Positions 13,022 to 38,582 of a stretch of DNA of 64,000 bases are shown one piece after another. The DNA lies in assembly GCA_018266775.1 (NCBI GenBank), contig JAFDZS010000010.1:307983-371982 (forward strand). Direction: 5' to 3'. The notes beneath the pieces are model-generated. The model saw only the letters and a program-made list of their open reading frames with translations, had not been told where the DNA came from and made no database searches. Every line of letters starts with the position of its first letter. Position 1 is the stretch's first letter. Source of the stretch: Bacteroidota bacterium (GTDB lineage Bacteria > Bacteroidota > Bacteroidia > Chitinophagales > Chitinophagaceae). The position numbers and the translations under genes were made by a program.

Positions 13022-13044
13022 CGATTTAAATGAAATTACATTTA

Positions 13045-13332
13045 CTACAGGCCTTTTAAATAGACTTTACTATTGTCAAAACAATTATGCGATGGATAAT
13101 AATAAATGTAGCCAAATTCATGTAAATTATTCATACACTTGTTATAAGTATAACGGGCATTTATTTTGGCAAACTTCATTATACTTCTTCTTAAAATAAT
13201 TACAGGATTGACACCTCCATTTAAATTCCATTGTTGCAACAAAGCCATGTATAGACTGATATGCGTGGTCCCGATCCTTACATCATCTTCAATAGCTTCA
13301 TAAAATTTAGTCATTGCAGGGAAAAGTTCCAT
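13045..13332 (-). CDS. Small winged-helix-like element protein
   Basis: This is a 95-residue protein with the pattern T-H-I-S-L-Y-M-A-L-L-Q-Q-W-N near residue 23. A later T-Y-N-K-C-M-N-N-L-H-E-F-G-Y-I segment is typical of small helix-turn-helix proteins found beside recombinases in Bacteroidota conjugative elements. It is probably a DNA-binding regulator or recombination accessory factor; this rests on pattern and context only. It is 16 nt downstream of the 252-residue gene. Confidence 0.65.
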   Translation of the reverse strand: MELFPAMTKFYEAIEDDVRIGTTHISLYMALLQQWNLNGGVNPVIILRRSIMKFAKINARYTYNKCMNNLHEFGYIYYYPSHNCFDNSKVYLKGL

Positions 13333-13348
13333 TACTTAAACATTATTT

Positions 13349-14107
13349 TTAAACTGAAATACTGCGTTTAGAATATTTTGAATTCCCGCCACGTTTCTTC
13401 TTAAGTAGTCCTTTGTTCCCTGGTCCCTGGGAATCATTTTCTGTTTCTTCAGTTTCCTGGTTATTCGTTTGTTTCTTTTTTAAATGAATTTGCTTTTCTA
13501 ACAAACGATTTTTTAAAAACCGATAAGCCTCGTCCACAGATATGCCAACCTGCCCCTCAAAGAGATAAAAACGCTGACTTATATCAAATTTGCTTTTTAC
13601 AGGATTGATGCTACCAAATAATTCCTGGTAAGGAGCGCCTTGCCAATATTTTAGTTTAAGGCCTGCAGCAATTGCGAAACCTTCTTCAGTTATTTCCAGT
13701 CTGGATATATTTTCCATAACTGCTTCCAATTGCAGTTCTTTTTCCCAACTTGCCTTGTCATTCCAGTTCAATTGCTTTTTGGAAGAAAAGTCAAATGCGT
13801 TTTTCCAATCAATTTTTTTCATCAAATTTTCAAGATTGACGATGTCAATGTCGTTAATAATCGAATTAGCTGTAATCAATTCTGTTTGAAGGGTTGCATC
13901 ATAATACCTTAGTAAATAAGCATCATGTTTTATGTCCTTTTCAATGAAAAATTGAAAAACTAACTGCTCATTGCCTTTCTCAATTTTTTGCGGCAGAAAA
14001 AAATGACCAGGATTAAAGCAAATTCTTTTTAATAAAAAATTTCCGGTGTTTTCAAAACCCAGAGAGTGCAATTGTTTCTCTAATGAAATGATATTTTCGA
14101 TGTTCAT
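13349..14107 (-). CDS. Hypothetical ICE accessory protein with basic C-tail
   Basis: I do not recognise a named domain. The protein is 252 residues, soluble and mixed alpha/beta, with no signal peptide. Residues about 170-200 (the F-D-I-S-Q-R-F-Y-L-F-E-G-Q-V-G segment, then S-V-D-E-A-Y-R-F-L-K-N-R) look well ordered. From about 205 on it is low-complexity and charged, ending in a strongly basic tail that contains G-L-L-K-K-K-R. That tail resembles the C-termini of two other proteins of this element (the 408- and 1833-residue proteins). It lies 37 nt downstream of the 408-residue gene and is probably co-transcribed. Confidence 0.7.
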   Translation of the reverse strand: MNIENIISLEKQLHSLGFENTGNFLLKRICFNPGHFFLPQKIEKGNEQLVFQFFIEKDIKHDAYLLRYYDATLQTELITANSIINDIDIVNLENLMKKIDWKNAFDFSSKKQLNWNDKASWEKELQLEAVMENISRLEITEEGFAIAAGLKLKYWQGAPYQELFGSINPVKSKFDISQRFYLFEGQVGISVDEAYRFLKNRLLEKQIHLKKKQTNNQETEETENDSQGPGNKGLLKKKRGGNSKYSKRSISV

Positions 14108-14144
14108 GATAATGCTTTTTAGTAAAAGGAGTGAGGAGTATTTT

Positions 14145-15371
14145 TTAAGATACTCCTAAACCTTTTTTATGGCTTTCTCTTTTTTTGGGCAATAGCGTGT
14201 TGTCTTTTTGTTTGCCTAATAGTTCTTTACCCGGCTTCACTTCCTTGCTCAGCTCTTTTTTTTTATCATTGCCCATATCTTCCTTTACAGCTTTGCCGGC
14301 TTCTGTTTTACCAACGGATTGATATTTCTCTACTGATTCCTTTGCAACCATTTTCATGTTGGAATCATACAGGTTAACCTTTTTAAACTGGGGATCAGCT
14401 TCAATAAACATTTTGTGACTGCTGCCATCCTTTTCAATGGTTACAGATTGCACGTTTCCTTTCTGTAATGATTGCATTAATGCTTTTTCTTTTTCGGGAT
14501 CCTTTAAATCTGCGATGGCAAATTTCCCAACCGCTGTTTTCAAATTAAAACCATAGTTTTCATGGTACTGCTTTACTTCAAAGTTGTTTTTGTTGTCCTT
14601 ATTGCCTAAGTCCAGTTGCAACCAGGCTTTATAAGGCTGGTTTTCCTTAGTTACAAGGTCTTTGTGCACGGCACGGCCATCCAGTAAATTGAAGGCCTCC
14701 TTTGAGGTAATGCCTTTGCCCTTATTGATGTAAAAGGTTTGTTCCATTTTTTCACCATTTTTTTTTTGCAGGGAGGCATTATAACTGTTGAAAAAATACA
14801 TGTCTGTTTGATCAGACTTTTTAAAATTCAATGTGGCTTCAAATGGTTTTTTGTTGATCTCCGCATTGTACTTCAATTGAAATTCAGGCTTGCCTTCAAC
14901 CAAGTTTTTTTCAAGGGCATCTTTAAGATTTTCACCAAAGCCCATGTATTTGATATTATCTGTCAAATACTTTAAATTCTCGTTGTTCATAATACTTGTT
15001 TTTATTTGTGAATTAATATTTGATGATTGTTGGTCTATATGGTCAATTAATGCATCAGTAAACGGGTTGCCTTCATAATTGTATAAACCATTTGCGTCAG
15101 GATTATTTGAAAGCCCGGTAGTACTTGTGCCGTAAGGAATTTTATTAAATACATCCCAAAGGGAATTAAAGTGAATGACAGCGTAATTATCGTAATCACT
15201 ATGGTTGTTAAATGCAAATTCCTTGGCCTCAGTTTGAGATTTGAAAAATTGTATAGCATCTTTTTCAATGAAATACAGGGATCCATTATAAGCCATCCAG
15301 TTTTCGCCTCTTATTAATGCATCATTGCATAGTTCCAGCACCTCATCTGATATAACATGTTCATTATTCAT
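14145..15371 (-). CDS. Conserved ICE protein (TraN-distal accessory)
   Basis: This is a 408-residue soluble protein. From about residue 128 it contains a module beginning M-N-N-E-N-L-K-Y-L-T-D-N-I-K-Y-M-G-F-G-E. F-N-S-Y-N-A-S-L and Y-I-N-K-G-K-G-I-T-S-K-E-A-F-N-L-L-D-G-R-A-V segments follow. I recognise this module from conserved hypothetical proteins of Bacteroidota conjugative transposons. The N-terminal 125 residues appear to be an added domain. The tail is lysine-rich and ends T-L-L-P-K-K-R...G-L-G-V-S, resembling two other element proteins. Function is unknown; a role in DNA processing or as a transferred protein is speculative. Confidence 0.75.
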   Translation of the reverse strand: MNNEHVISDEVLELCNDALIRGENWMAYNGSLYFIEKDAIQFFKSQTEAKEFAFNNHSDYDNYAVIHFNSLWDVFNKIPYGTSTTGLSNNPDANGLYNYEGNPFTDALIDHIDQQSSNINSQIKTSIMNNENLKYLTDNIKYMGFGENLKDALEKNLVEGKPEFQLKYNAEINKKPFEATLNFKKSDQTDMYFFNSYNASLQKKNGEKMEQTFYINKGKGITSKEAFNLLDGRAVHKDLVTKENQPYKAWLQLDLGNKDNKNNFEVKQYHENYGFNLKTAVGKFAIADLKDPEKEKALMQSLQKGNVQSVTIEKDGSSHKMFIEADPQFKKVNLYDSNMKMVAKESVEKYQSVGKTEAGKAVKEDMGNDKKKELSKEVKPGKELLGKQKDNTLLPKKRESHKKGLGVS

Positions 15372-16129
15372 TGTAAATCCGGAAGTGTAATGGCCTTAAT
15401 AATTTTATTATTATGCACCCTTAGCAGTAGATGCCTGCCGCCATTTTTTTCATTGATTTCAATGGCCAGGTATTTCGCATCAGGAATAGTGAATTTTTCC
15501 AACGCAACCACTATGCTGTTTTTGCTATTTGCTTTAACCTGTTTGATATTGCCTGCAATGAACAGCGACTGCAATTCATTTTCCTGGGTGGCTGTTCTTT
15601 TGCTTTTATGTTTGTCCCTGATATAAAAGCGCAGAAAATCGATGTCATAATCCAGCGGACTGTTATTCGTTATCCATAGTTGATAGTAAATAGTATTTTC
15701 TTTGATGTAAATTCCCGCAACCTGTCCTTCCACATCCCAGCTATGGCTGCGGATGCCACGAAGCGTTAAAGGATTATCTGCAATACCTCTGGCATATTCC
15801 GATAGGGGAACCTGCTGTTGTACCGGAACCTGGTAAATCCAAATGGCCGGTGTTTCGGCATATTGAACAGGGAAGGCATATACGCTGCCATCAGTAGTAA
15901 CTACACTTAAATTGGTAAACTGGAAATCCTTGGTGGCTGCTTTTACCAGTAGAATATTGTCTGCATCTTTTACAGGTTGTATTAATATATCCTTCGTGCC
16001 CCGGTCCACATGACGGATGGCGAATGGAAATACAAGGGTGGTGGTCTTATCAGTGCTGATTTGTACCGTTTGTGCATTGCCCAATAATTGTAACAGGCAA
16101 CTGGTGAGAATGATGATTAAATATTTCAT
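15368..16129 (-). CDS. traN: Conjugative transposon protein TraN (DUF4138)
   Basis: The protein has a signal peptide (about 1-19, ending L-L-G-N-A-Q) and a beta-rich periplasmic domain with V-F-P-F-A-I-R-H-V-D-R-G (about 32-43), the landmark of TraN. In CTnDOT-type systems TraN is an outer part of the type IV secretion channel. Its start is 25 nt after the TraM stop, and its stop overlaps the next gene by 4 bases. Confidence 0.88.
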   Translation of the reverse strand: MKYLIIILTSCLLQLLGNAQTVQISTDKTTTLVFPFAIRHVDRGTKDILIQPVKDADNILLVKAATKDFQFTNLSVVTTDGSVYAFPVQYAETPAIWIYQVPVQQQVPLSEYARGIADNPLTLRGIRSHSWDVEGQVAGIYIKENTIYYQLWITNNSPLDYDIDFLRFYIRDKHKSKRTATQENELQSLFIAGNIKQVKANSKNSIVVALEKFTIPDAKYLAIEINEKNGGRHLLLRVHNNKIIKAITLPDLQ

Positions 16130-16154
16130 GATGATGATTTTTAATTTTCAAAAA

Positions 16155-17429
16155 TTATTGTTGTTTATCTTTTAATAAGATCCGATAACCTGCTTTCACC
16201 TGCACCTTAACCAGTTTAACTTTTTTACTTAACAGGTTTTTTGCGGTTTCAATTCCTGCGCTTGCAGCCTGCGCTCCAATTGAGGGATCGAGACTTCCCA
16301 GTGCCACAGACTGCAGGGCATTATCAGTTGATTGTTTGGCCACATCACGGCTGATAGCACCAGGTATATAAATACCCGCCAATCCATCCATATCATATAC
16401 TTCCATCTTAACCGGGAAAAGAGAATTGCCTTCTCTTATGGAATTGATATTGATTTCCAAACGCTCATTATTTAGTGTTACGGTGCCGAATACAAAATTC
16501 CCTTTTGGAATACAATGCTCACTGATATATACCGGCGAACATAGCCTGAGTTTGATCACAGCTCCTGATACCAATGTTTGGGTTTCATGCACGACAGCTT
16601 CGATCGCATTCTGTGTAGTATTTTCGTTGGCTTCTGTAGTTCCAAAGAAGCTTTCAGCGGGAGAGGGGAGTTGCTGAGTGACTGGAGTATCCAATAAACT
16701 GAAAGTAGATTTGTATACTTCTTTATTTACTGAGAAAATGGTTTCTTTATTTACCGGCGCATTCACTTTTAATTTTTCAGTTACTCTTTCCGGGTGTTGA
16801 ATGTCCAGTATCTTTTCCAGCATGCCACTCAACTGTTTCATTTCCGGATCTTCGGATTTATTGCCGGTCGCAGATTGCAGCATTTGTTCCAGCCTGTCAA
16901 CATCGATTGACCCTGCTCCCGTTTGATTGTACAGATTTGTATTGTCTGTTTGACTTGCAGTAGTGTTGCCATTTGATTTTAGTGCTGCATTTAATTGTGC
17001 CAGTTTTTGATATACCTTGGTTTCATTGGGGTCTGTATATGGGCTATTGGTATAGCCATTACTGTATCCCTGATTTGAATTTCTGTTAGCAGTGACAGAA
17101 GGATTTCTTTCAGAAAAAGCCGCCAGAATACTGTCCGCTGCCACAGGAGGTTTAACAAAATAAGGATCATCCTTCATTTGTTGCATGATCTTTTCTGAAT
17201 CAGACTGTGCCTTGTCGTAATACGCCAGTTTGTCCATCGTCCGGTCATCCTTAAGTGCCGCTCCAGGTAATTCCAGGTTTAATCCTGAGGTGGTTTTGAC
17301 GGATTCGTTCGGGCTTCCTTTACCGCCACCTAGCGCCCAGAATGCCATCGTAATAAATGGGATAACTAATGCTGGTAATACCAGCAACATTTTTCTTTGG
17401 CGCAACATTTTTGTTGTTAGCTGTTTCAT
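16155..17429 (-). CDS. traM: Conjugative transposon protein TraM
   Basis: The protein has a basic N-terminus followed by one membrane helix (about 14-33). A long low-complexity Asn/Ser/Thr-rich linker follows to about residue 220, then a C-terminal beta domain (about 270-424) with V-I-K-L-R-L-C-S-P-V-Y-I and P-K-G-N-F-V-F-G. This layout is typical of TraM, a VirB10-like scaffold of the transfer channel. The start lies 3 nt after the preceding stop, indicating tight coupling. Confidence 0.88.
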   Translation of the reverse strand: MKQLTTKMLRQRKMLLVLPALVIPFITMAFWALGGGKGSPNESVKTTSGLNLELPGAALKDDRTMDKLAYYDKAQSDSEKIMQQMKDDPYFVKPPVAADSILAAFSERNPSVTANRNSNQGYSNGYTNSPYTDPNETKVYQKLAQLNAALKSNGNTTASQTDNTNLYNQTGAGSIDVDRLEQMLQSATGNKSEDPEMKQLSGMLEKILDIQHPERVTEKLKVNAPVNKETIFSVNKEVYKSTFSLLDTPVTQQLPSPAESFFGTTEANENTTQNAIEAVVHETQTLVSGAVIKLRLCSPVYISEHCIPKGNFVFGTVTLNNERLEININSIREGNSLFPVKMEVYDMDGLAGIYIPGAISRDVAKQSTDNALQSVALGSLDPSIGAQAASAGIETAKNLLSKKVKLVKVQVKAGYRILLKDKQQ

Positions 17430-17432
17430 GAT

Positions 17433-17930
17433 TTATTCTTTTAGTGATTGTTGTAATTCGTATAATTTTTTTAGTTGAAATGTACTGTCCATTAATCCCG
17501 GTCTTTTTAGCAGGATGCTGTCAGCGATTCTCTTTCCTTTTGTGGTTTGATTAAGGCTATCTATATATTGATGGAAGCGGATTATTTTATAGTATTCCTT
17601 TTCGGGTATGAGACTATTACTTAGCGTTTTTTCCTCTCCAGTTTTTGTGGTGTATTTCGGGACATGAATTTTTGAAATGGAGTATCCTTTTTTAGGCTTT
17701 TGTATAATACTTGATGCAATGATGTACAAGCTGTACAATGAGGCCAACAATACAATAATTATGGTGAAATATTTTTTAGTACGCAATGAAAAGCGTTCGG
17801 AGTTTCTTTGCATAAAGTAAGCCCATCTGAATTGGAAAGCGGTAACCTTTCCAACAATACCATTAACCAGTTTATCCTGTAATGGACTGGTTTCCGGAGT
17901 TTTCTTTTTCCTTTTAAATAAATTAAACAT
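17433..17930 (-). CDS. Small inner-membrane protein in TraL position
   Basis: This is a 165-residue protein with a basic cytoplasmic N-terminus, one membrane helix at about 55-75, and a charged alpha-helical region outside. It occupies the slot between TraK and TraM where CTnDOT carries TraL, but I cannot see enough similarity to name it TraL. Gaps of 2-3 nt to both neighbours indicate it is an integral part of the transfer operon. Confidence 0.75.
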   Translation of the reverse strand: MFNLFKRKKKTPETSPLQDKLVNGIVGKVTAFQFRWAYFMQRNSERFSLRTKKYFTIIIVLLASLYSLYIIASSIIQKPKKGYSISKIHVPKYTTKTGEEKTLSNSLIPEKEYYKIIRFHQYIDSLNQTTKGKRIADSILLKRPGLMDSTFQLKKLYELQQSLKE

Positions 17931-17932
17931 GA

Positions 17933-18550
17933 TTACCTGTTTTGAACTTTAATGTCTTTATTTAAAATAGTAGCCCAGCGTTCGATTAAAAATCCATGCG
18001 GATTATTATCAGAACGTGAAATATTACGCAGGTACCCCTCTGTGATTAAACTTCTGGTTACGGTACTGGTAGTACGAACAATGGATTGCGTTCCGTAACA
18101 CCGGAAATAATAGGGTGTTTGGTTGAGGTCCACCATCACACTGTCGATGCTGATGGTCTGGCTGATATTGCCTGAAATGATATTGGTGAAATATCCGCTT
18201 TCTTTTAAATTATCATACTGGCGCTTTGCTGAAATGTCTGCCAGGTACAATGCTTTGGTGATATTGGTCTGGATTAGTTTTTCATCCGGGTCAAGGGTGA
18301 AAAAATACTGGTGAAAGGTTTTAATATGGTCTTTGGCTTCTACAGGAATATTATCCTTTCTTTCACCGATACTGGCTTCCAGAGCTTTGCCGTTGGATAA
18401 GATGTAAATCTTTGATTGGATATGGCTGACCAGCTGAAAACTTTTGTACATGGAGAAACAACAGATTCCCACACAGGCAATGATCAGCAGCATACTGAAT
18501 GTTCTTACATATTTAAAAGCACTGTCAATATTTTTCATTTGTTTAAACAT
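17933..18550 (-). CDS. traK: Conjugative transposon protein TraK
   Basis: This is a 205-residue protein with an N-terminal membrane anchor (about 17-37) and a periplasmic VirB8-like domain. Family landmarks include N-I-D-S-A-F-K-Y-V-R near residue 7, D-H-I-K-T-F-H-Q-Y-F-F-T-L near 69-81, and the C-terminal G-F-L-I-E-R-W segment. TraK is an assembly factor of the Bacteroidota type IV secretion system. Confidence 0.9.
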   Translation of the reverse strand: MFKQMKNIDSAFKYVRTFSMLLIIACVGICCFSMYKSFQLVSHIQSKIYILSNGKALEASIGERKDNIPVEAKDHIKTFHQYFFTLDPDEKLIQTNITKALYLADISAKRQYDNLKESGYFTNIISGNISQTISIDSVMVDLNQTPYYFRCYGTQSIVRTTSTVTRSLITEGYLRNISRSDNNPHGFLIERWATILNKDIKVQNR

Positions 18551-18574
18551 CTTCGTTTCTTTTTATCTATTAAC

Positions 18575-19726
18575 TTATTTGCCTGATAACCTGTTTTTCA
18601 TGTACTCACTGGTGCCATTACCATTGCCAGAGGAGAAGCTATTAGAAACACTATTCATTATTGCACCACCTGCAGAAATCGTGTTATTCGTTACACTTCT
18701 TGTAGTGGCATTAAAACCGGAAGTGACTTTATGCAGAAAACTGTTTTGACCGCCTGCTTGTATGATATAATTGGCTACACTGGGAATGGTAAAATATCCG
18801 CAGATGCCAATGATCATAAAGACCAGGTAGGCCATATCAGTGGAAGAAAAAAAAGTATCGCCCTGTGATTCGATTTGGGAAATATCTAGTTTGAGCATAT
18901 TCTCCTGGATCTTACCCATGATCGCACCGAATATATTGGCTACCGGTAGCCAGAGGAAAAAGTTTAGATAACGGGCAAGCCAGGAACTGAGGGTATGCTG
19001 AAATCCATCAAAGACTGCAATACCAAAAACCAATGGACCCAGAATCGCCAGTACCACCAGATTAAAAGTTCGGATAGTGTTAATGCAGAGAGCTGCTGCT
19101 TCATAGAATACTTTTAGGATTTCAGACAACCATTCTTTAATGGAGTTCTTGAAATTGTAATAGAATTTGCTCATGGCAAATTGTACAGAATTGCCCACAC
19201 CAGCAATCCATCCTTCTTCAGAAGGATCTTCATTGTAAGTATATTGGTACCATTTATCCCGGTCACCTTCTCCTGATGCACCAACATACATCTGCCAGTA
19301 AATGGTTTTCTTGATGGCTTCTTCCTTTGCTTTTAATAGGGTTGCGATAGCTTTATCAGAATTTTCTACCATGCCTTCTGTAGCCGTAACAGTGGGTTTC
19401 ATTACCCCATTGATCATAGCGATTACCGAAGGAAAGATGAGCACGGCAAAACCCAAAACAAATGGCCGGAACAAAGGATAAAAATCAATGGGTTCTGCAT
19501 TGCTGATATGCCGCCAAACCCTTGTAGCAATATACCAGGTAGCTGCAAATCCTGCAATGCCACGTCCCACACCAATCAATTGGCTGCACATTGGCATCAT
19601 ATCATCGTATAATGCATCCAACACAGAATGCAGGCTATGAATTTCTGTGGCGACCTGCGCCTGTAATAAATATGGAACCATCATTCCCACTGTTGCCATA
19701 AAAGCAACCCTTACGCACTTTCCCAT
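18575..19726 (-). CDS. traJ: Conjugative transposon protein TraJ
   Basis: This is a 383-residue polytopic membrane protein with an N-terminal signal-like helix, hydrophobic segments at about 50-68 and 88-105, and a cluster at about 215-320. A Ser/Asn/Gly-rich C-terminus follows. It corresponds to the VirB6-like TraJ of CTnDOT, part of the inner-membrane channel. The D-P-S-E-E-G-W and F-L-W-L-P-V-A-N-I-F segments are typical. It follows the TerB-like gene by 14 nt. Confidence 0.9.
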   Translation of the reverse strand: MGKCVRVAFMATVGMMVPYLLQAQVATEIHSLHSVLDALYDDMMPMCSQLIGVGRGIAGFAATWYIATRVWRHISNAEPIDFYPLFRPFVLGFAVLIFPSVIAMINGVMKPTVTATEGMVENSDKAIATLLKAKEEAIKKTIYWQMYVGASGEGDRDKWYQYTYNEDPSEEGWIAGVGNSVQFAMSKFYYNFKNSIKEWLSEILKVFYEAAALCINTIRTFNLVVLAILGPLVFGIAVFDGFQHTLSSWLARYLNFFLWLPVANIFGAIMGKIQENMLKLDISQIESQGDTFFSSTDMAYLVFMIIGICGYFTIPSVANYIIQAGGQNSFLHKVTSGFNATTRSVTNNTISAGGAIMNSVSNSFSSGNGNGTSEYMKNRLSGK

Positions 19727-19740
19727 AAAATTGGTTTTAC

Positions 19741-20364
19741 TTATTTCACATCATGTAATTTTTGTATTATGTCCACGTCGGATTTTTCTTTGGAACGCTG
19801 GATACTCAGTATGGATGTATTGGAGTTAAAATGCCGAAGAAAAACCATCTTGTCCTGCATACCGGAATAAATTTGATCAATACGTTTCAGCCGCTCATCA
19901 TCTGTCATCCGCAATTGATTGGCGGTTAAAACTGTTGCCAGGTCATCCAAGTGTTGCAGGCTTTGTTTAAACAGGTTGCTGTAAACCCGTGCGATATAAT
20001 CAATCTCCTCCTGCCTGAACCAGTTATTGTTTTTAAACCGGGTAAAAGCTGCTTTGTACTCTTTTACTAATTGCAACTGCAGGCTGATAATATCCGCTAC
20101 CTTTTTATATTTCTGCACAGCGGGACTAACTTTTAATAAGCCATCCAGGAAGGTTTGATGTAAACTGAAATTTCCTTCGGAAATATTTTTAATAGTGGTA
20201 TACCCACCGTATAAGATTTCATAGGCTTTTTTCAGGTCACTTAATATTTGTTTAAACTGGGCGAGCTTTTCAATATTCAATGCCAGCTGCTGCAATTCTT
20301 CTGCCTGGGCACTCGCTTTTGCAGTGCTTACAGCTAAGAAGAGTATGATGATTATCTTTTTCAT
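19741..20364 (-). CDS. TraI/TerB-like secreted protein, paralogue 3
   Basis: This is a 207-residue protein with a signal peptide (about 1-20) and an all-helical body. It shares with its two upstream neighbours the layout F-S-L-H near residue 67, K-K-V-A-D-I-I near 86 and the Q-x-M-T-D-D-E-R-L-K-R-I-D motif near 152-164. Databases often label this family TerB-like tellurite resistance, but here it is clearly a transfer-operon component and nothing suggests tellurite. A periplasmic VirB5-like role is an inference from position. Confidence 0.82.
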   Translation of the reverse strand: MKKIIIILFLAVSTAKASAQAEELQQLALNIEKLAQFKQILSDLKKAYEILYGGYTTIKNISEGNFSLHQTFLDGLLKVSPAVQKYKKVADIISLQLQLVKEYKAAFTRFKNNNWFRQEEIDYIARVYSNLFKQSLQHLDDLATVLTANQLRMTDDERLKRIDQIYSGMQDKMVFLRHFNSNTSILSIQRSKEKSDVDIIQKLHDVK

Positions 20365-20394
20365 GGTGCGCTCTTTTGATTTTAAAAAATAGCA

Positions 20395-21012
20395 TTATTT
20401 AATTCCATACCAATCCCTGCTTTGTTTTAATTCATTGCTTTCTTTCATTCGCTGCATAGCCATGACCAGCGTTTCCTTGCTGAAATGTTGAGTAAATACA
20501 TAATTGCTTTGCATTTGAATATACAGGTCATCAATACGTTTTATCCTCTCGTCGTCTGTCATTTGGTATTGTGCTGCAGCTAATACTTTATACAATTCTT
20601 CCAGGTTATTGCCTGTGTCATCAAGCAGTTTGCTGAATACAGAATAGATATAGTTGATTTCAGTATTGCTGAATTGTTTACTTGCCTTAATCTGTTTATA
20701 ACTGCTTTGATAGTTTTTAATGATTTGTACCTGAAGGGTTATAATATCTGCTACTTTCTTCAGGTTTTTTATTTTAGGATTAACGGCTTTAAGTTTATCA
20801 AAGAAAATGCGGTGAAGGCTAAACTCACCATTCTTAATATCCGCAATAGTAGTGAGTCCGAATTTTGCAATTGCCATTGCTTTTTTCAGGTAGTTGATCA
20901 GCACTTCGTTTAATCCAATTTGTTTCAGGTATAATTTTACCTGTTTGGATTGTCCATAAGATGACAAGAGAGAAGCGAATACAATGGTGACTGTAATGAG
21001 TAGCTTTTTCAT
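20395..21012 (-). CDS. TraI/TerB-like secreted protein, paralogue 2
   Basis: This is a 205-residue signal-peptide protein (cleavage near residue 20) that is clearly homologous to the next gene. F-S-L-H-R-I-F-F-D near 67, K-K-V-A-D-I-I-T-L near 86 and Q-M-T-D-D-E-R-I-K-R-I-D-D near 151 are all at the same positions. It is probably the product of a local duplication. The function is presumed to be a periplasmic transfer component. Confidence 0.82.
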   Translation of the reverse strand: MKKLLITVTIVFASLLSSYGQSKQVKLYLKQIGLNEVLINYLKKAMAIAKFGLTTIADIKNGEFSLHRIFFDKLKAVNPKIKNLKKVADIITLQVQIIKNYQSSYKQIKASKQFSNTEINYIYSVFSKLLDDTGNNLEELYKVLAAAQYQMTDDERIKRIDDLYIQMQSNYVFTQHFSKETLVMAMQRMKESNELKQSRDWYGIK

Positions 21013-21018
21013 AACTTT

Positions 21019-21687
21019 TTATTTAATGCCATACAATGCCCTTACCACATCAATATCCTGCTGATCCTTTGCCCGGTGCAGGCTCAGTAATTTATTTTGT
21101 GTATTAAATTGTACCAGATCCGCATAGTTTTTATCTACCTGTTCTGCGGCACCGTCGATAATTTCTAACCGCTTGGCATCTGACATCTGAGTACTGAATG
21201 AATTGATCACTATAAAAATCTGGTCAATATTTTTGGCACTTTGTTCCAGAATGCCTGAATACACTTTTTCCATATAAGCAATTTCTGCTGAGGTAAAATG
21301 TTGGTCCTGCTTAAATAATGCGAATGCTTTTTTATAAGCATCGACCAGCAATATGTTTTTCTGTGTCAGGTCTTTGATGCGCTGGTAATAGGCAATAATG
21401 TTTTTTACTTTCTGTAACTCTTCGAAATAATCCTTGTACAGTGTTCGCTGTTTTTCCACCCAGCCTGAAATTTCGTCGAGCTTTAATTTAGACATGGTGT
21501 TTTCCAATGCCTTTTGCGCATTCTGCAGCCAAATAGTTTTATTCTGCACTTTCTGCACAGCCAGGTCAATTGCTTTAATGATTTTTATTAATATTTCTTT
21601 GATGATGCCAATCTGCGCATGGCTTTGCTGTACAGGTGCCATACTTAATCCAACGCACAATATCAGCAAGATTATAATCTTCTTCAT
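21019..21687 (-). CDS. traI: Conjugal transfer protein TraI (secreted), paralogue 1
   Basis: This is a 222-residue protein with a signal peptide (about 1-24) and a helical body. The N-terminal I-K-I-I-K-A-I-D-L-A-V-Q-K-V-Q-N-K-T segment is the landmark of Bacteroidota TraI, not to be confused with F-plasmid relaxase TraI. Its C-terminal half (F-T-S-A-E-I-A-Y-M-E-K-V-Y, Q-M-S-D-A-K-R-L-E-I-I-D) aligns with the two downstream paralogues. It lies 6 nt upstream of paralogue 2, in the same operon. Confidence 0.85.
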   Translation of the reverse strand: MKKIIILLILCVGLSMAPVQQSHAQIGIIKEILIKIIKAIDLAVQKVQNKTIWLQNAQKALENTMSKLKLDEISGWVEKQRTLYKDYFEELQKVKNIIAYYQRIKDLTQKNILLVDAYKKAFALFKQDQHFTSAEIAYMEKVYSGILEQSAKNIDQIFIVINSFSTQMSDAKRLEIIDGAAEQVDKNYADLVQFNTQNKLLSLHRAKDQQDIDVVRALYGIK

Positions 21688-21761
21688 AGTTGTAAGTTTT
21701 AATAATTCAAAAGGGTTTCATTTTTATTTAAATTATTTTCTTCATTCGTCAAAATTTGTAA

Positions 21762-22148
21762 TTATAGTTTCTTGTACATCGTTGTTCCCATCCACATAAT
21801 TTCTTTTTTCGGATCAAATGATAATACTCTCCCATTATTATTAATGAATATCGTTTTGGTCTTAACGTCATATGTTCCGGTCCATTTTGCAATTTTATAT
21901 TCAGGTGCTTTGTCTTTTGCTGCATTTATAAACTCAATATGGGAACGCCTGGTGATTCGGAAAGTTTCGCTGCCATTTTCTGTTAATGGCTCCAGCAATA
22001 AAGTGTCTTTTGTTTGATTAAACTCAGTTGACCAGTCTGCGCTATAAGTGCCCGGAATGAAAACTTTTACCGTATCAGCTTGAATCAGGTTGTTACAGCT
22101 CAGTATCACTACAACTAAACCAGCCAGTAAAAATGCACTCATCTTCAT
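21762..22148 (-). CDS. Small lipoprotein in the tra operon
   Basis: This is a 128-residue protein with a lipoprotein signal (V-I-L-S-C, Cys at about residue 18) followed by a small beta-rich domain. That domain has G-T-Y-S-A-D-W-S near 33 and K-W-T-G-T-Y-D-V near 88, a repeated G-T-Y motif like a lipocalin-type or META-type beta sheet. I do not recognise a named family. Its place 17 nt after TraG suggests a channel or entry-exclusion lipoprotein; this is inference. Confidence 0.72.
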   Translation of the reverse strand: MKMSAFLLAGLVVVILSCNNLIQADTVKVFIPGTYSADWSTEFNQTKDTLLLEPLTENGSETFRITRRSHIEFINAAKDKAPEYKIAKWTGTYDVKTKTIFINNNGRVLSFDPKKEIMWMGTTMYKKL

Positions 22149-22165
22149 AAAGATTATTTTTTGTG

Positions 22166-24601
22166 TTAACCCATTCGCATATCTGCAGCCATGGCTGCAA
22201 TTCCTTTTTGAATACTGCCATATTTTTTTGCATAAGCCTGCATCTTAACTTTCTCAGTTTCTTCTGTGGTATAGGCCAGGTATTCTTCCAGTGAAACTTC
22301 TGTTCTGTACACACGGGAAAGAATACCACCAAGTGAAATAAAAACCTCCTTATATTTTTTTGTGGGGTCATTCGCTTTATTGACAGACAGAACTAAAGCC
22401 TTTTCTTTCTCAGTTAAACCGAGTAATTCCTGTATTTGATCAAACTTATTCTGGTACTTACTTTGGTCCAGTAATATTTTGCAATCACTGTTATTAATGA
22501 TAGCCTGCTTAACCACAGGGGAGGAGATAATATCTTCAACCTCTTGTGTCACCACAATGGCTTCTCCAAAAAATTTGCGTACCGTTTTAAAAAGGTATTT
22601 GATGTATTCCGCCATTCCTTCTTTGGCAATGGCTTTCCAGGCCTCTTCAATCAATATCATTTTACGGATGCCTTTCAGCTTCCGCATTTTAGAAATAAAC
22701 ACTTCCATAATGATAATGGTGACAACAGGAAATAAAATCGGATGATCTTTAATGTTATCCAGTTCAAAAACAATGAAGGGTTGTTGTAATAAATCCAGGT
22801 TTTCCTTGGCATTAAGCAAATAATCAAATTCACCGCCATTATAATATGGGCGTAGTACATACAGGAAATTGCTCACATCAAAATCCTTATCCTTAACATT
22901 ATCTCCCAAGAGCACAGTTACAAATTCATCTTTCAGGAATTCATAAAAACTGTCAAAACAGGGAAATAGATCGGGCTGTTTTTCCAGTTTATCAAAATAG
23001 AGTTGCAATGCATTGGACAAGGCAACATATTCACTTCGGTTGTACGTTTCATTGTCTTTTTTCCATAAAGCCAGCAACAATGTTTTAATACTTTCTTTTT
23101 TTTCTGTATCCAGTACATCACCATATCCGATGTAGAATGGATTAAACCGAATGGGATCCTTTTCTGAATAAGTGAAATAATAGCCATGCACCATATCGCA
23201 TAAGCCCTTGTAGGAATGTCCTACATCCACCAGTACCACATGGGTACCTTGCTCATAATAAGAGCGTACCATATGATTGGTGAAAAATGATTTACCACTG
23301 CCGGAGGGACCTAAAATGAATTTATTGCGGTTGGTGCAGATGCCTTTATTCATAGGCTCGTCTGATATATCTACATGCACCGGCCTTCCTGTCAAACGGT
23401 CGCCTAATCTTATACCAATGGGAGATAGGGAGGACCTGTAATTGGTTTCCATATTAAAAAAGCAACAGGCCTGTGGTGAGAATGTATCGAAAGTATCATT
23501 CATTGGAAAATCTGCAGCATTGCCTGGTATACCAGCCCAGAATATTTGTGGCGCACCTTCGGTTTCAATTTTCGGAGTGGCATCCATCTGTGTGAGCGCA
23601 GAAGAGCAGAGATTACGAATTATTTTAAGTTCATCTCTGTTAGATGTCCATGCAAGAATATTAAAATGTGCTTTTACTGGTAAGCGTTGTTCAGCAATGG
23701 CTTCATTTAAAAACTGGTCAGTGGCTTCCTTGGCAATAGTGTTTTCCCTGCTGTATGCTGATAATGATTGTAAACGCAGGCGTTTACTTTCGAGTTTCTG
23801 TAAAGTTTTGGGACTGTCTTCAATAAAAACAAATTGATTATAAATATGATTGCAGGAAAGCAGTTGCCCAACAGGTGATGCAAACCCCACACTGAATTTG
23901 GTCTTGTCCGTGGAGTATTTATCATAATTGATTCTTGAGCCGCATAGCGCCGGTACAAACTGTGCATCTGCCATAGTATATAGCTGGCAATGATTTTCCC
24001 CGATCATCCAGTCGGGATGAAATACAATATCCCTTAAAGTCTCATCATCAGACTGCAGGTTAATATACTGGCTGACTATATTGATCAGTTGATCATTGTT
24101 TAATTTTTGTAAAGCCATAAATCCACTGTCTGATAGTATCTTTTCAAACTGCCCGACATGGTTCATAAAATCCTGAAAGTGTTTGGGCTGAATCGTTTCT
24201 TCAGGAACCATACTCCTTTTTAACAGGCTGGAGAATACTGAACTGGATACTTTGCGGTTGGCAGGTTTCTTGGTCAGGAAAATATAAGCCTGGTGATCGA
24301 GGAAAGGTCTTTCATTAAAAAATCTATCACTGCTGCGGCTGAGAAAACTATTGTCATCTTTAATGAACTGTGGTTTAAAACTGGTTTCTGTGAACCAATC
24401 CTGTTTATGTAGAATGGAATGTGGTGGTAATACTTTAATAGCTTTAATCCACGCATGATGCAACGCTTCATATTCTTCATTGCTTAAGGTAAACAGCTCC
24501 GGTAACTCGACTTTAAATGCAACTGTAATGTCTCCCATTTTGGAAAGCAATGCATCATGTTCTGCACCATATATCGGTAATAGATCAAAAAGATTTTTCA
24601 T
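22166..24601 (-). CDS. traG: TraG family conjugation ATPase (VirB4-type)
   Basis: This is an 811-residue ATPase. Walker A (G-P-S-G-S-G-K-S) lies near residue 437 and the Walker B-like M-I-L-I-E-E-A-W-K near 654. A VirB4-type N-terminal half precedes them, and Q-E-V-E-D-I-I-S-S near 680 is the usual glutamine motif. It powers assembly of the transfer channel at the inner membrane. Its first 17 bases overlap the end of TraF, as in other CTnDOT-like clusters. Confidence 0.95.
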   Translation of the reverse strand: MKNLFDLLPIYGAEHDALLSKMGDITVAFKVELPELFTLSNEEYEALHHAWIKAIKVLPPHSILHKQDWFTETSFKPQFIKDDNSFLSRSSDRFFNERPFLDHQAYIFLTKKPANRKVSSSVFSSLLKRSMVPEETIQPKHFQDFMNHVGQFEKILSDSGFMALQKLNNDQLINIVSQYINLQSDDETLRDIVFHPDWMIGENHCQLYTMADAQFVPALCGSRINYDKYSTDKTKFSVGFASPVGQLLSCNHIYNQFVFIEDSPKTLQKLESKRLRLQSLSAYSRENTIAKEATDQFLNEAIAEQRLPVKAHFNILAWTSNRDELKIIRNLCSSALTQMDATPKIETEGAPQIFWAGIPGNAADFPMNDTFDTFSPQACCFFNMETNYRSSLSPIGIRLGDRLTGRPVHVDISDEPMNKGICTNRNKFILGPSGSGKSFFTNHMVRSYYEQGTHVVLVDVGHSYKGLCDMVHGYYFTYSEKDPIRFNPFYIGYGDVLDTEKKESIKTLLLALWKKDNETYNRSEYVALSNALQLYFDKLEKQPDLFPCFDSFYEFLKDEFVTVLLGDNVKDKDFDVSNFLYVLRPYYNGGEFDYLLNAKENLDLLQQPFIVFELDNIKDHPILFPVVTIIIMEVFISKMRKLKGIRKMILIEEAWKAIAKEGMAEYIKYLFKTVRKFFGEAIVVTQEVEDIISSPVVKQAIINNSDCKILLDQSKYQNKFDQIQELLGLTEKEKALVLSVNKANDPTKKYKEVFISLGGILSRVYRTEVSLEEYLAYTTEETEKVKMQAYAKKYGSIQKGIAAMAADMRMG

Positions 24602-33356: not shown

Positions 33357-35081
33357 ATGGAATTAAAGTATTTACTGGCACTCAAAGAATCTGAAAATAA
33401 GGTTGAATTCAAAGCTGCCCGTAATAACTTTAAATACGCCGGAGGCGATAATAAAGAGCCAAAGGATCGCCGTCATTGTGTATTAGGGTATGTGATTGCC
33501 TTTTGTAATGAAGGCGGTGGTATGCTGGTTTTAGGAGTAGATGATAAACATCCCCATACTGTTGTAGGTTCTAACTTTGCAGAAGGATTAGAAGGTAATC
33601 TTTGCGATCAGATTTATTCAGACATTGGTATAAGGGTGGAAACTGAAGTTTTACAACAGGATGGGAAAAGAGTTTTAATAATAAAAATACCCAGCCGTCC
33701 GATTGGGAAGTTGATGAAATTTGAAGGGGTTCCGTTAATGAGGATTGGAGAAAGTTTACGGGAGATGTCTGATCAGGAAATGCTCAAAATTCTTTCTGAA
33801 CAGGAGCCTGATTTTTCTGCTACAATTTGCGAAGGGTTAACAATTGGAGATTTGGATGAATTCTCGTTGCATGCAATGGCAGAAAGATATGCGGCTAAAC
33901 AAAATAACAATGATTTCCTTTCTTTACCTCTTGAGCAAAGCCTTTCAGATTTAGATTTGTCAAAGAATGGGAAACTCACTTATGCAGCACTTATATTAGT
34001 TGGTAAAGATGAAGCATTGAAAAAATTTCTACCTCAAAGTGCTATTAACCTTGAATACCGTGTAAACAAAGATTCTATTCATTATGATGACCGGCTAATT
34101 GCTAGCCATTCGGTGTTTAAAAATATTGATATCGTATGGGATCATATCAATTTACGTAACGGAAAATTTCCCATTCAGCAAGGGCCATATATTCTTGACA
34201 TTCCCTTTTTAAATGAAGAGGTAGTTCGGGAATCTGTAAACAATGCAATTGTTCACAGAGATTATCACCTGCAGTCGGAGATTGTTATCAAACAATCTAA
34301 TAACAGCCTTGATGTAATTAGCCCCGGAGGATTTCCTTTAGGTGTTTCTGCTGAAAATATTTTAACGGTTAATAGTACCCCAAGAAACAGGTTATTAGCT
34401 GATATACTTTTAAAAACGGGAGTGGTTGAACGCTCAGGGCAGGGCGTTGATAAACTTTTTAAAAACACTATCCAGGAAGCTAAAGGCAGCCCTGATTATT
34501 TAAGATCAGATAGTTTTCAGGTGCATTTACATATTCCAACTATCGTACAGGATAAAGCATTTGTTTTATTTATCGAATACATACAAAAGGAAATTAAGGT
34601 CGATTTGTCTTTGATGGAAGTTTTGACATTGGAAAAAATCCGGCAAAAAGTTGATAAGTCTGAACTTGATCATAACACAGTAAAAACCTTGCATGACAAA
34701 AATTTAATCGAACTCATTGGTCGTACTCATGCAAAAGGGTACATGTTGTCTAAAATGTATTTTTCTTTCACTAATCAACCAGCGGCATATACAAAACAAA
34801 AAGATCCTGACATCAGTAATATATGGCTGCAAGTCTTCAACCACATGTCGAAATTTAAGAAAGCAAAAATACTTGACTTTGAATCCTTATTTGAAGGAAT
34901 ACTTACCCGTGAGCAAGTGAAATATTATATCTATCTTTTTGTAGATGCTGGTATTTTAAACCGAAAAGGCGTTAGCCGGGGAACCTATTATGAACTCTCG
35001 GCAGAACTTTTAAAACATGATAATCCTCTTCAGTTAGGATTAGAAAAATTGAAGGATATACCGGATAGCACATCGTCATAA
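33357..35081 (+). CDS. AlbA_2 (Schlafen-type) / RecG-like ATPase-domain protein
   Basis: The N-terminal AlbA_2 domain (about 10-130) has E-F-K-A-A near residue 17 and I-A-F-C-N-E-G-G-G-M-L-V-L-G-V near 49-63. The region about 285-400 matches the HATPase-like domain of this family: N-N-A-I-V-H-R-D-Y near 297 and V-E-R-S-G-Q-G-V near 358. The C-terminus looks like winged helices. Members bind nucleic acid and are often labelled ATP-binding or RecG-like; many sit in defence islands, but the biochemical role is unknown. It reads on the opposite strand to the tra block and is probably cargo. Confidence 0.85.
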   Translation: MELKYLLALKESENKVEFKAARNNFKYAGGDNKEPKDRRHCVLGYVIAFCNEGGGMLVLGVDDKHPHTVVGSNFAEGLEGNLCDQIYSDIGIRVETEVLQQDGKRVLIIKIPSRPIGKLMKFEGVPLMRIGESLREMSDQEMLKILSEQEPDFSATICEGLTIGDLDEFSLHAMAERYAAKQNNNDFLSLPLEQSLSDLDLSKNGKLTYAALILVGKDEALKKFLPQSAINLEYRVNKDSIHYDDRLIASHSVFKNIDIVWDHINLRNGKFPIQQGPYILDIPFLNEEVVRESVNNAIVHRDYHLQSEIVIKQSNNSLDVISPGGFPLGVSAENILTVNSTPRNRLLADILLKTGVVERSGQGVDKLFKNTIQEAKGSPDYLRSDSFQVHLHIPTIVQDKAFVLFIEYIQKEIKVDLSLMEVLTLEKIRQKVDKSELDHNTVKTLHDKNLIELIGRTHAKGYMLSKMYFSFTNQPAAYTKQKDPDISNIWLQVFNHMSKFKKAKILDFESLFEGILTREQVKYYIYLFVDAGILNRKGVSRGTYYELSAELLKHDNPLQLGLEKLKDIPDSTSS

Positions 35082-35562: not shown

Positions 35563-36348
35563 ATGGGACATGAAAGAGTTGGTTTTTTACCAAAATCAAA
35601 ATCATGGAATAAAGTTGTAGAGTCAATACATGGCTATTCTGAAGCAACGCCTGATGTTTCTATAATTGCAGAACAGGCCTTAAAAAATATTCGCCAAAAA
35701 TTTCTTGCCTTAAATACAGATTTAAGTTTTCTTGCTTCTTTTAAATGTCTTGTTGTACTTTCTTATGCGAATAAAGCTGAAAATCCAATTGGGTTTTTGA
35801 GCGAAAATGGGATTGGGGTTAATGAAAATGGAAGTCTATTTCAACTTACATCTGCCACCCAAAAATGGATGGAAAAGCAAAGCGGTTCAAAAGAGTATAA
35901 TACTTTAGCTACCAAAGCGCTTGTTGATACCATTAATAACTGGGTTAAAACTAATCAGCCTGGCGCAAGTTTGTTTGGAAAAAATGAAAGCATCCTTGCA
36001 TCATGGGAAAAAGCTACAAATGGAGCAGGGTTTTGTGAAGTAAGCCGTGATTATTTTTCACGTTTCACTACTAACTATTTATCTTATTTTTTAGACAGAG
36101 CCGCTTCAGCTCAAATTGATTCTATTACTGAACGGAATCAGTTTTCCGATTCCATAAAGAACCATATCTCAGAAATATCTACACATGCTTTTGAGACCTC
36201 CAAAATTGCACAGTCTTTTGCAGCTGGCTGGTTTAACAGCAATGCCAAAACTGAGTTTCCTTCAGACAAAAAAATTAAAGGCTTTCTGGGTATAGTAACC
36301 AAGAAGTTTCACGATGAATTTTCAAGGGAGGGGCGTGGCAAAAAGTAA
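35563..36348 (+). CDS. QatB-like partner protein with Met-Gly-His N-terminus
   Basis: This is a 261-residue soluble protein, mostly helical by appearance, starting M-G-H-E-R-V-G-F-L-P-K. The start is well marked: in-frame stop context upstream and a compact conserved-looking N-terminus. No catalytic motif is visible. It is followed with a 14-base overlap by a QueC-like enzyme. In the Qat system the QueC-like QatC has a small partner QatB that begins Met-Gly, and QueC-like defence enzymes have been reported to attach a deazaguanine to a partner N-terminus. By analogy, Gly2 here, exposed after Met removal, is the candidate acceptor. The QatB relationship is by context and N-terminus, not by recognisable fold. 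Confidence 0.6.
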   Translation: MGHERVGFLPKSKSWNKVVESIHGYSEATPDVSIIAEQALKNIRQKFLALNTDLSFLASFKCLVVLSYANKAENPIGFLSENGIGVNENGSLFQLTSATQKWMEKQSGSKEYNTLATKALVDTINNWVKTNQPGASLFGKNESILASWEKATNGAGFCEVSRDYFSRFTTNYLSYFLDRAASAQIDSITERNQFSDSIKNHISEISTHAFETSKIAQSFAAGWFNSNAKTEFPSDKKIKGFLGIVTKKFHDEFSREGRGKK

Positions 36349-38209
36349 TTTTAAACATATAGCCCTATGCAATGGCGCTACTTTACCTAAGGGTTTAAAG
36401 GTAAAGGGCGATAAAGTCTGGCATTTAACTGATGACGCAGGGAAAGCTGTCTTTGGTACAATTCTCTTGGAGAAATTTGTAAACCAGGTAAGCCATATAC
36501 CGGATAGAGTTAAAGATCTTTTAGAGATAGCTGGGAATCTTTTTATTATAGATCGGAAAGTTGGAAGAGGTACATCGAATTCTATTGAATTTGATGGCTG
36601 GTCCCGAACGATTCATTTTATAATGAAAGTCAGGGATGGTAAATTCTGGATGCAGGAAACAACAAGAAATTTGTTATCAGAAGCGGTAACCTTCATGACC
36701 GGGGATTATGAATATCAATTTCTTTTCCAGGACGGTTATCCAAGTACTGCATTTAATTTATTTGACCAGTCTGGTATTTCAGTTGGATTAGACGACGGGA
36801 AAAAGCATATTGCACTTTTTTCAGGCGGACTGGACTCCTTTACCGGTGCAGTTGATTTTTTGGAAAATAATCCGAATAGTAAATTATTTCTTATAAGCCA
36901 TACCTCCGGTAATCCAAGCACTAAAGCTACACAACAACGTATTTACAAATTACTTGAGGAGCTTTATCCACAGAGAACTACCTGGTACAAATTTAAATGC
37001 CACATGACAGGCGTAAGAGCGGTGGAAGAAAGCCAAAGAACTAGAAGTATACTTTACTCGTCGGTTGCCTATGCACTTAGTAGTATTTTTAAGGAAGATT
37101 CATTTACCTTTTTTGAAAATGGTGTTACGTCTTTAAATTTCCCCAAAAGGGCAGACATGATCAATGCCAGATCAAGCAGGACTACACATCCAAGAACTAT
37201 TTGGCATCTTAAAAATTTCTTGACTCATTTGCATGGAAAGCCATTTGAAATCAAACATCCTTATTTGCTTTTAACTAAAACAGATGTTATTGCAAAGCTT
37301 AAAACGTTTGATAAAAATCAGTATATAAATAATACGGTTTCTTGCTCTGTTGCCTTAAAAAAGGATGGCAACTTTACTCATTGTGGCACCTGCTCACAAT
37401 GCGTAGATAGAAGATTTGCAATGCATGCCAGCCAGTTGGAAGAAGACGATGGGCAAGGTATTTACACTAAGAATTTCATTCTTGATAAAATAGATGATAA
37501 TGCAGACAGGTTAACTATTCTAGATCATGTCAGACAGGCAATGAAATTTAAGGACACTACTGAGGATGGATTTTATATTGACATGGCTGCTGAACTAGGC
37601 AATTTGCTCGAGTATATGAATACTGATGAAGAGGCAGCTTTTAACTTGCTATATGATTTATGTAAAAGGCACGGACAACAGATACATGCAGCTATATTGA
37701 GGATGAGAAATGTTTATGATGATCCTTTTACTCAAATTACTAAAGGTTCATTCCTTGATATTATAAATGAGAAAGAATATCTGAAACCTGAAGCAAAACT
37801 ACTTTGCGAAAAGATAAAAAAGAAACTGGATGAAGCTTTACCAATAATGTTCCGAAAAAATCTTCCTAAAGATGAAAATGATTTAAATGATAAGATTAAT
37901 GGTATTATAAATGGAGAAGCAGAACAATATGGCAGAGAGTTTCCATCCATACAATTTTCCTCTATACGCACAGTTGTTGATCATAGTTTTGCTTCAAATA
38001 ATCTCTTAATAGAAAGTAAATATCTTAGAGGGAATACAGGAGAGCGGGTTGCTACAGACGGTATAAGTGCAGACCTAATCAAATATCCTTCAGAATCTCA
38101 TTTGTTGTTTTTATTGTATGATCCAGAAAGAAAAATTTCAAGTGATAATTTATTGATCCAAACTTATGAACAAAAGCGGAATAATGTTACAGTATATATA
38201 TTCCGTTAA
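36335..38209 (+). CDS. QueC-like PP-loop enzyme with C-terminal PD-(D/E)xK-like domain
   Basis: I choose the GTG at 36335 because AAGGGAGGGG lies directly before it; an ATG at 36314 in frame lacks that. The product is 624 residues. Residues about 65-150 match the N-terminal region of QatC-like enzymes (D-R-K-V-G-R-G, G-W-S-R, F-M-T-G-D). The PP-loop S-G-G-L-D-S is at 163-168, and a QueC-type zinc site is formed by C337, C350, C353 and C356. QueC converts carboxydeazaguanine to preQ0 with ATP; defence relatives modify proteins instead. The last 120 residues carry D549-x10-E560-S-K562, a PD-(D/E)xK nuclease signature. No other queuosine genes are near, so a defence role is favoured. Confidence 0.8.
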   Translation: MAKSNFKHIALCNGATLPKGLKVKGDKVWHLTDDAGKAVFGTILLEKFVNQVSHIPDRVKDLLEIAGNLFIIDRKVGRGTSNSIEFDGWSRTIHFIMKVRDGKFWMQETTRNLLSEAVTFMTGDYEYQFLFQDGYPSTAFNLFDQSGISVGLDDGKKHIALFSGGLDSFTGAVDFLENNPNSKLFLISHTSGNPSTKATQQRIYKLLEELYPQRTTWYKFKCHMTGVRAVEESQRTRSILYSSVAYALSSIFKEDSFTFFENGVTSLNFPKRADMINARSSRTTHPRTIWHLKNFLTHLHGKPFEIKHPYLLLTKTDVIAKLKTFDKNQYINNTVSCSVALKKDGNFTHCGTCSQCVDRRFAMHASQLEEDDGQGIYTKNFILDKIDDNADRLTILDHVRQAMKFKDTTEDGFYIDMAAELGNLLEYMNTDEEAAFNLLYDLCKRHGQQIHAAILRMRNVYDDPFTQITKGSFLDIINEKEYLKPEAKLLCEKIKKKLDEALPIMFRKNLPKDENDLNDKINGIINGEAEQYGREFPSIQFSSIRTVVDHSFASNNLLIESKYLRGNTGERVATDGISADLIKYPSESHLLFLLYDPERKISSDNLLIQTYEQKRNNVTVYIFR

Positions 38210-38275: not shown

Positions 38276-38512
38276 TTATTCTTCAATTTCAAAATCTAAT
38301 AGCTTCTTTGGGTGAATTTCTAATCCTTTTGATAATTCTAAGATAGTTAAGAGTGTTATATTAAACTCTCCTTTTTCAATTTTGCCTATATTACTGTGAT
38401 CAACATTACAGGAAGCTGCAAGTTCACGCAGGCTTACTCCTTTTTTCTCTCTAATTTTTTTTAAATTTTTTCCGAAACTCTTTAAAAAATCATTAGAATT
38501 TATCTCGTCCAT
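38276..38512 (-). CDS. XRE-family helix-turn-helix regulator
   Basis: This is a 78-residue single-domain protein. Helix-turn-helix residues about 12-66 include I-R-E-K-K-G-V-S-L-R-E-L-A, the recognition region N-V-D-H-S-N-I-G-K-I-E-K-G and L-L-T-I-L-E-L-S-K-G-L. It is a typical lambda-Cro-like repressor with a short acidic tail. It converges on the QueC-like gene, 66 nt from its stop. An inverted repeat 51-70 nt upstream of its own start is the natural autoregulatory site, and it may also control the neighbouring operon. Confidence 0.88.
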   Translation of the reverse strand: MDEINSNDFLKSFGKNLKKIREKKGVSLRELAASCNVDHSNIGKIEKGEFNITLLTILELSKGLEIHPKKLLDFEIEE

Positions 38513-38562: not shown

Positions 38563-38582
38563 TGTGGGTAAGTATACCCACA
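38563..38582. promoter_or_regulatory. Inverted repeat upstream of the XRE gene
   Basis: TGTGGGTA and TACCCACA are separated by 4 nt, a perfect 8-bp dyad located 51-70 nt before the XRE start on the minus strand. Position and size fit an operator bound by a Cro-like dimer. Confidence 0.55.

Follow-up and report, generated by a model that had tools for sequence, protein, structure and literature searches.

The locus considered here raises the question of what a QueC-family enzyme does when it is encoded beside a small protein starting with Met-Gly-His (MGH). A stretch of 64,000 nucleotides from a Bacteroidota bacterium of the Chitinophagaceae (assembly GCA_018266775.1, contig JAFDZS010000010.1, positions 307,983 to 371,982 of the forward strand; "the window" below means this whole stretch) harbors such a pair of overlapping genes at 35563 to 38209. 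The best reading of the data is that the pair represents a hitherto undescribed variant of the QatBC core with exchangeable effectors, for which we infer an anti-phage role. The literature covered contained no description of a QatC nuclease or TIR fusion or of the MGH form, subscription papers and two other QatBC reports being outside its scope.

QatB and QatC were recently reported as the minimal defence unit of qatABCD, and according to the accessible part of that report (PMC13279940) the two proteins alone defend against lambda, with QatB Gly2, a tail segment containing P16 and W18, and the QatC active site all required for defence. Two QatC threonines (T278, T280), the joint mutation of which abolished defence, are described there as standing in for the Tyr/Asp pair by which QueC and Cap9 hold their nucleobase. 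The same accessible text poses as questions how QatC acts on QatB and how the phage is stopped, and the clade described below offers a handle on both.

The gene pair and its QatC core

The second gene (36314 to 38209, + strand) is an open reading frame (ORF) coding for a QatC-nuclease fusion of 631 aa counted from its ATG, supported by profile matches and by matches to sequences of solved structures. Translation more probably begins at the GTG at 36335, as this codon is closely preceded by an AGGGAGG-like stretch and is the point from which the relatives align; the overlap with the first gene amounts to 14 nt from the GTG and to 35 nt from the ATG. A preliminary description of this DNA had numbered key residues as D167, C350 and K562, that is, 7 below the ATG-based count used here, which is consistent with the GTG start. 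It had presented a Met-Gly-His gene overlapped by a QueC-like PP-loop gene with an S-G-G-L-D-S loop and four zinc Cys, and both ORFs were found as described, with the loop at S170-G-G-L-D-S175 and the cysteines at 344, 357, 360 and 363.

The QatC-type N-terminal region attributed to the enzyme at that time was borne out by sequence and fold, as the large protein matched QatC in PADLOC (1.3e-46) and the sequence of a solved QatC (2e-23), with the fold alignment in agreement. Alignment to QatC 9y02_B delimited an N-terminal extension at residues 13-158 (36350 to 36787) and a C-terminal helical extension at residues ~380-488 (37451 to 37777), the alignment reaching residue 488, while the QueC-like PP-loop domain at residues ~159-379 (36788 to 37450) was assigned by PF06508 and by QueC and Cap9 alignments; these and the following features of the protein are all on the + strand. 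Within this domain, the ATP loop SGGLDS (residues 170-175; 36821 to 36838) is kept as SGGxDS in 84/84 of the relatives' rows with letters there, and the four zinc-site cysteines (37343 to 37402) in 87/87, near-duplicates being included in these and the other counts and many loci being metagenome bins. The segment SRTTHP (residues 288-293; 37175 to 37192) places S288 and T290 at the positions of T278 and T280 of the solved QatC, the T280 equivalent being kept in 87/87 rows and the T278 position being divided between Ser (44 rows) and Thr (43 rows).

Matches to the QueC motifs YPDC, VPxRN and YxQxHxxE were absent from the large protein and, together with the fold alignment to QatC, this ruled out a canonical queuosine enzyme. 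Moreover, the NCBIfam QatC equivalog, with a cut-off of 280 bits, gave 182.9 bits for the window protein and 171.4-217.2 bits in 7/7 relatives scanned, so that all 8/8 MGH-type QatC proteins scanned fell below it.

The first gene (35563 to 36348, + strand) is an ORF for a QatB-like protein of 261 aa, belonging to an "MGH" family. Its resemblance to QatB, also part of the preliminary description, held for the predicted fold, which found QatB as its best match, and was only weakly supported by the sequence profile, where canonical QatB was reached with a probability of 15. Neither a PDB sequence search nor any of four protein libraries gave a match to it and, given the position of QatC below the NCBI cut-off, surveys relying on these models probably overlook the family. 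The codons for the conserved tail MGHERVGFLPKSKSW (G2, H3, P10, W15) occupy 35563 to 35607 (+ strand); across 71 aligned small proteins M1, G2, H3 and W15 were invariant and P10 was kept in at least 90%, and a P...W tail is common to most MGH proteins. The MGH start was present in 82/82 full-length small proteins counted, the window's included (67 clusters at 90% identity), a set from which rows shorter than 200 aa (L037, L041, L100-L102) and the duplicate L094 had been dropped and in which starts were reset to Met-Gly with a search pattern whose third residue could be H, E, K, N, Q, S or T. The QatBs of L003-L010, L103, L105 and L106 start with MGTS or MGTT, whereas the MGH proteins have no MGTS motif.

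A few irregular copies were also observed. In one viral-contig copy (L156, 7602 to 8707) the QatB-like protein starts with MRH instead of MGH and adjoins a 110-aa QatC remnant, a single case in which loss of Gly2 coincides with a reduced enzyme. Short and apparently decayed copies of the MGH protein (L100-L102, L117, L118) occur in three genomes of one genus.

The co-occurrence of both genes, a tally that had been called for beforehand, was confirmed by a QatB-like ORF beside QatC in 76/80 loci fetched with the QatC proteins, two of these ORFs being broken (L037, L041); the two-gene arrangement is thus not due to chance. Among the four remaining loci, L027 and L030 have a QatC devoid of its N-terminal part, and tblastn with five queries found nothing in L054 and L084. 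Counted from the earliest QatC start, the two genes overlap in 80/82 pairs. Promoter and terminator scans gave results no better than shuffles.

Profiles of QatA and QatD, built from four annotated qat operons, matched L003-L007 only and L003-L010 only, respectively, all of them non-MGH loci (the flanks of L008-L010 are too short for QatA), and had no match in fetched, extended or viral MGH-type loci. A qat operon with QatA/QatD was therefore rejected for the MGH loci, and the early statement that neither a KAP ATPase nor a TatD gene accompanies the pair stands. A different form of the QatB-QatC unit was observed in two loci (L011, 858 to 3341; L012, 617 to 3080), which carry a 185-186-aa MGTS...NW protein, a fusion-free QatC and a 208-209-aa downstream protein unmatched by the QatD profile.

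The C-terminal domain and its relatives

The large protein continues beyond the QatC part with a DpnII/MboI-type PD-(D/E)XK domain (residues ~493-631; 37790 to 38206, + strand), matched by PF18742 at 553-629 with 29.6 bits, just above the cut-off of 27. Its catalytic pattern is D556-x10-E567-x-K569, and D556, E567, K569, R572 and D587 are kept in 27/27 nuclease-type relatives, a set in which one locus appears twice (as L002 and as L020) and from which the TIR proteins L025 and L026, similar through a shared flank, were excluded. The D-x10-E-x-K domain of nuclease type that had been proposed from the letters was in this way upheld. PF18742 was above its cut-off in 7/8 nuclease-type proteins scanned, L093 being below it, and the fold search with the large-protein model returned no DpnII-like structure among the matches listed, an outcome of no weight since these were filled by the QatC part.

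Other domains were found at the place of the nuclease in related pairs, such as TIR in L025 and L026 (Pfam 1.9e-14 and 1.9e-15) and a winged-helix domain in L077 (Pfam 5.9e-8). The remaining C-termini had no Pfam assignment and comprise the L042 type (~250 aa), an alphaproteobacterial group (winged-helix by eye), a small group resembling helix-turn-helix (HTH) domains, L086 and L116. The last of these (8967 to 10937) codes for a QatC of 656 aa with an ELK motif at its C-terminal end, nuclease-like by eye and unmatched by Pfam there. Labels beyond Pfam (W, X, B, U) rest on grouping by similarity and by eye, with the Pfam winged-helix behind W only in L077 and U being a mixed bin.

A quick tree of 88 QatC cores split 74 MGH-type rows from 14 other QatC (SH-aLRT 91, under the tool's star), 12 of the latter having Qat partners or annotation and two (L011, L012) an MGTS-type neighbour and no QatD. 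Mapping the domain label, partly set by eye, on this tree required 11 changes where the minimum possible was 6, a number that varies with the labels chosen. The TIR pair (support 99) was nested in a five-row set otherwise made of nuclease forms (support 97); L093 formed a long branch of unsure placement. The C-terminal domain is thus interchangeable among related pairs, being a nuclease, a TIR, a winged-helix or an unassigned domain; neither this nor the breadth of the family had been noted in the preliminary description.

Distribution, neighbourhood and queuosine genes

The genome collection was scanned with patterns from three nuclease-type proteins and the best 80 of 139 relatives were kept, for which reason the counts of C-terminal types are biased. 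These 80 loci were distributed among 15 named phyla and 5 unassigned records, and the 24 nuclease-type loci among 10 named phyla. In the window's own family a QatC-like match was found in 12/244 genomes and the full-length fusion in two of them (the host and G006), and in a sample of the phylum the small protein was matched in 9/395 genomes, host included, three of them by short weak stretches only. Only 1/72,556 plasmid records matched the small protein; a Leptospira noguchii plasmid carries a nuclease-form pair annotated as hypothetical proteins.

Viral sequences were also inspected. The L042-type query found 27 viral contigs, and the pair was complete in 25/27; these L042-type pairs in 25 IMG/VR contigs (L128-L152) indicate that prophages or phage-like elements are among the carriers of the system, and phage-like genes recur near the L042 group in the neighbour clustering. 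The window QatC found no match in viral contigs; in phage records it gave two matches, both distant and covering part of the QatC core, and the L042-type small protein gave none there.

Regarding queuosine genes, one QueD, two QueE and one QueF sequence served as phmmer queries and had no match beside the pair in the fetched loci. A single QueC-like neighbour was observed, in the Planctomycetota bin L035 (11429 to 12091), where it lies downstream of the pair at a distance of ~1.4 kb. The homologues are therefore not found mainly beside QueD/QueE/QueF, an arrangement that would have spoken against the immune interpretation offered at the outset. PF06508 was searched in 36 genomes, which amount to 35 because G006 and G629 are the same, and a canonical QueC match (E <=1e-48) was obtained in 17/35, with a weaker, two-piece match in G633. 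The QueE model gave some match in 28/35 genomes and exceeded its cut-off in 2, the weak matches possibly including other radical-SAM proteins, and QueD was found in 8/15 chosen genomes, among which were the seven already without QueC and QueE.

None of the three proteins was found in these seven carrier genomes (L034, L043, L050, L058, L071, L087, L090), with draft assemblies and salvage as caveats, and this argues against host-made 7-deazaguanine as the substrate there. Six of them are isolates of the alphaproteobacterial group, L043 having a shortened QatC, and L034 is a nuclease-type metagenome bin; in L064 and L076, sister genomes of the alphaproteobacterial group, QueC, QueD and QueE were all present. 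The window's own host may well produce 7-carboxy-7-deazaguanine (CDG), as its genome (L119, L120, L125) holds two genes of QueD type, one resembling QueE (65 bits, below cut-off) and, by eye, FolE. No canonical QueC was found in that genome, its second PF06508 match being argininosuccinate synthase by eye.

The surroundings of the pair agree with the placement first given to it, near an integrative and conjugative element (ICE): genes for a serine recombinase, TraM, TraJ and TraG were identified by Pfam upstream (11365 to 24601, - strand) and are taken as context only. The regulator of its own that had been credited to the unit is present, as an XRE-type gene (HTH_3) at 38276 to 38512 (- strand), and is shared by few relatives, all Bacteroidota; with an XRE gene close by only in the window, L002/L020 and L018, a core role in the system was ruled out. 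A palindrome, TGTGGGTAAGTATACCCACA, lies at 38563 to 38582, upstream of the XRE gene, of which it is perhaps the operator, and no second copy occurs within 3 mismatches across the window. Just upstream of the pair, a gene at 33357 to 35081 codes for a protein in which a Schlafen AlbA_2 domain is combined with HATPase_c_4; PADLOC matched it, more weakly, to Argonaute-associated proteins.

In a wider scan, 120 neighbours (90-900 aa) of 25 loci were listed and 81 were scanned, shorter ones and those of L013 being left out. The matches listed, covering 25 of 178 families, included single neighbours of defence type, such as Pycsar cyclase and TIR, AbiEi, type II methylases and PADLOC candidates; many of the 81 were ordinary genes and, as there was no control set, no enrichment in defence islands is claimed. 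No third gene conserved beside the pair across the family was seen among the first 40 neighbour clusters in at least 3 of 83 loci. The recurring neighbours were serine recombinases (21 loci, at varied distance) and an integrase adjoining one alphaproteobacterial group (9 loci).

Interpretation and comparison with known systems

We hold with moderate confidence that the pair is a two-gene immune module built on a QatB-QatC core, with the fused domain as its effector. By analogy with QatBC, the small protein would dock on the QatC extensions and, once Met is removed, its Gly2 tail would reach the PP-loop active site. There QatC, which probably carries out an ATP-driven modification of Gly2, would spend ATP to attach an activated carboxylate or to modify this residue in another way, and the modification would arm the complex or report infection. 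The fused domain would then act by DNA cleavage in the window form and probably by NAD+ cleavage in the TIR form, and QatA and QatD would be dispensable because the effector is built in.

Other explanations account for part of these observations. The C-terminal domain might be a DNA- or target-binding module that steers a QatBC core able to stop the phage by itself, in line with the winged-helix domain of L077, the HTH-like domains seen by eye in other relatives and the defence without QatA or QatD reported in the accessible part of PMC13279940. This is unlikely, since the nuclease form keeps its catalytic residues throughout (27/27) and TIR occupies the corresponding position in L025 and L026. 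TIR is a known type of enzyme effector. Less likely still is a service to the mobile element itself, such as the maintenance or toxin-antitoxin-like roles that genes of ICEs and prophages can have; the positions beside an ICE, on a plasmid and in viral contigs would suit it, as would the XRE regulator beside three Bacteroidota pairs, but the core is related to a proven defence unit, TIR and nuclease alternate and some neighbours are defence genes.

The presence of a QueC fold and a restriction-type nuclease domain within one protein could also evoke a restriction-modification scheme, in which the former makes a modified nucleic-acid base and the latter cuts unmodified DNA. The missing YPDC, VPxRN and YxQxHxxE motifs, the lack of QueD/E/F matches in the fetched loci, the QatB-like nature of the conserved partner and the seven carriers without QueC, QueD and QueE make it very improbable. 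It is hardly credible that the pair belongs to an ordinary qatABCD with QatA and QatD acting from elsewhere in the genome: the host does hold one KAP NTPase elsewhere, which matches QatA (1e-21), but this gene has no Qat or TatD neighbour, the KAP domain was found in 6/10 carrier genomes searched and unmatched in the other 4/10, and the tail reads MGH, not MGTS.

For the immune module, the presumed effector forms part of the QatC chain itself and varies among relatives, and core and effector should consequently be separable in tests. The carriers without detectable QueC, QueD and QueE argue, moreover, against host-made CDG as an obligatory substrate. We tentatively suggest a broader view, in which the MGH QatBC pair might be a general immune chassis, spread over many phyla, where N-terminal-glycine modification controls exchangeable effectors (nuclease, TIR or DNA-binding domains) that the modifying enzyme itself carries, no host 7-deazaguanine being needed and the attached group being a carboxylate other than host-made CDG, possibly of phage origin.

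Among known systems, the C-terminal domain resembles DpnII/MboI-type PD-(D/E)XK nucleases (PF18742) in its profile match and catalytic D...ExK, and differs from them by its fusion to QatC in a unit without partner methylase. QueC, the preQ0 synthase, is set apart by its signature motifs, by the large extensions of the pair's enzyme and by the lack of adjoining QueD/E/F matches. Another parallel is given by Cap9 and CdnD of Type IV CBASS (cyclic-oligonucleotide-based anti-phage signaling system), where a QueC-family enzyme likewise stands beside a partner starting with Met-Gly (MGGS in CdnD, according to the accessible part of PMC13279940). Unlike in Cap9, the nucleobase-contact Tyr/Asp are Ser/Thr and Thr in 87/87 rows, as mapped through the QatC alignment, and the enzyme has large extensions and a fused domain; no CD-NTase recurred in the neighbour clustering or was annotated at the Leptospira locus, a CD-NTase profile not having been run on every locus.

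The closest relative is qatABCD, from which the pair departs in several respects: QatA/QatD were not found beside it, an extra C-terminal domain is present, the enzyme scores under the NCBI QatC cut-off, the tail is MGHxR...P....W of ~14 aa instead of an MGTS tail of 30-90 aa, and Ser takes the place of T278 in roughly half of the rows. In the QatC cluster of PMC13329287, as far as its accessible text goes, qatA or qatD lies beside ~34% of members. The pair shares with qatABCD (PDB 9y01/9y02, 9zee, 9vlk) the QatC fold over residues 13-488, the ATP loop, the zinc cysteines, the QatB-contact loop with the T280 equivalent, the QatB fold, the overlapping qatB-qatC order and, in the small protein, the N-terminal glycine after Met and the P..W tail element.
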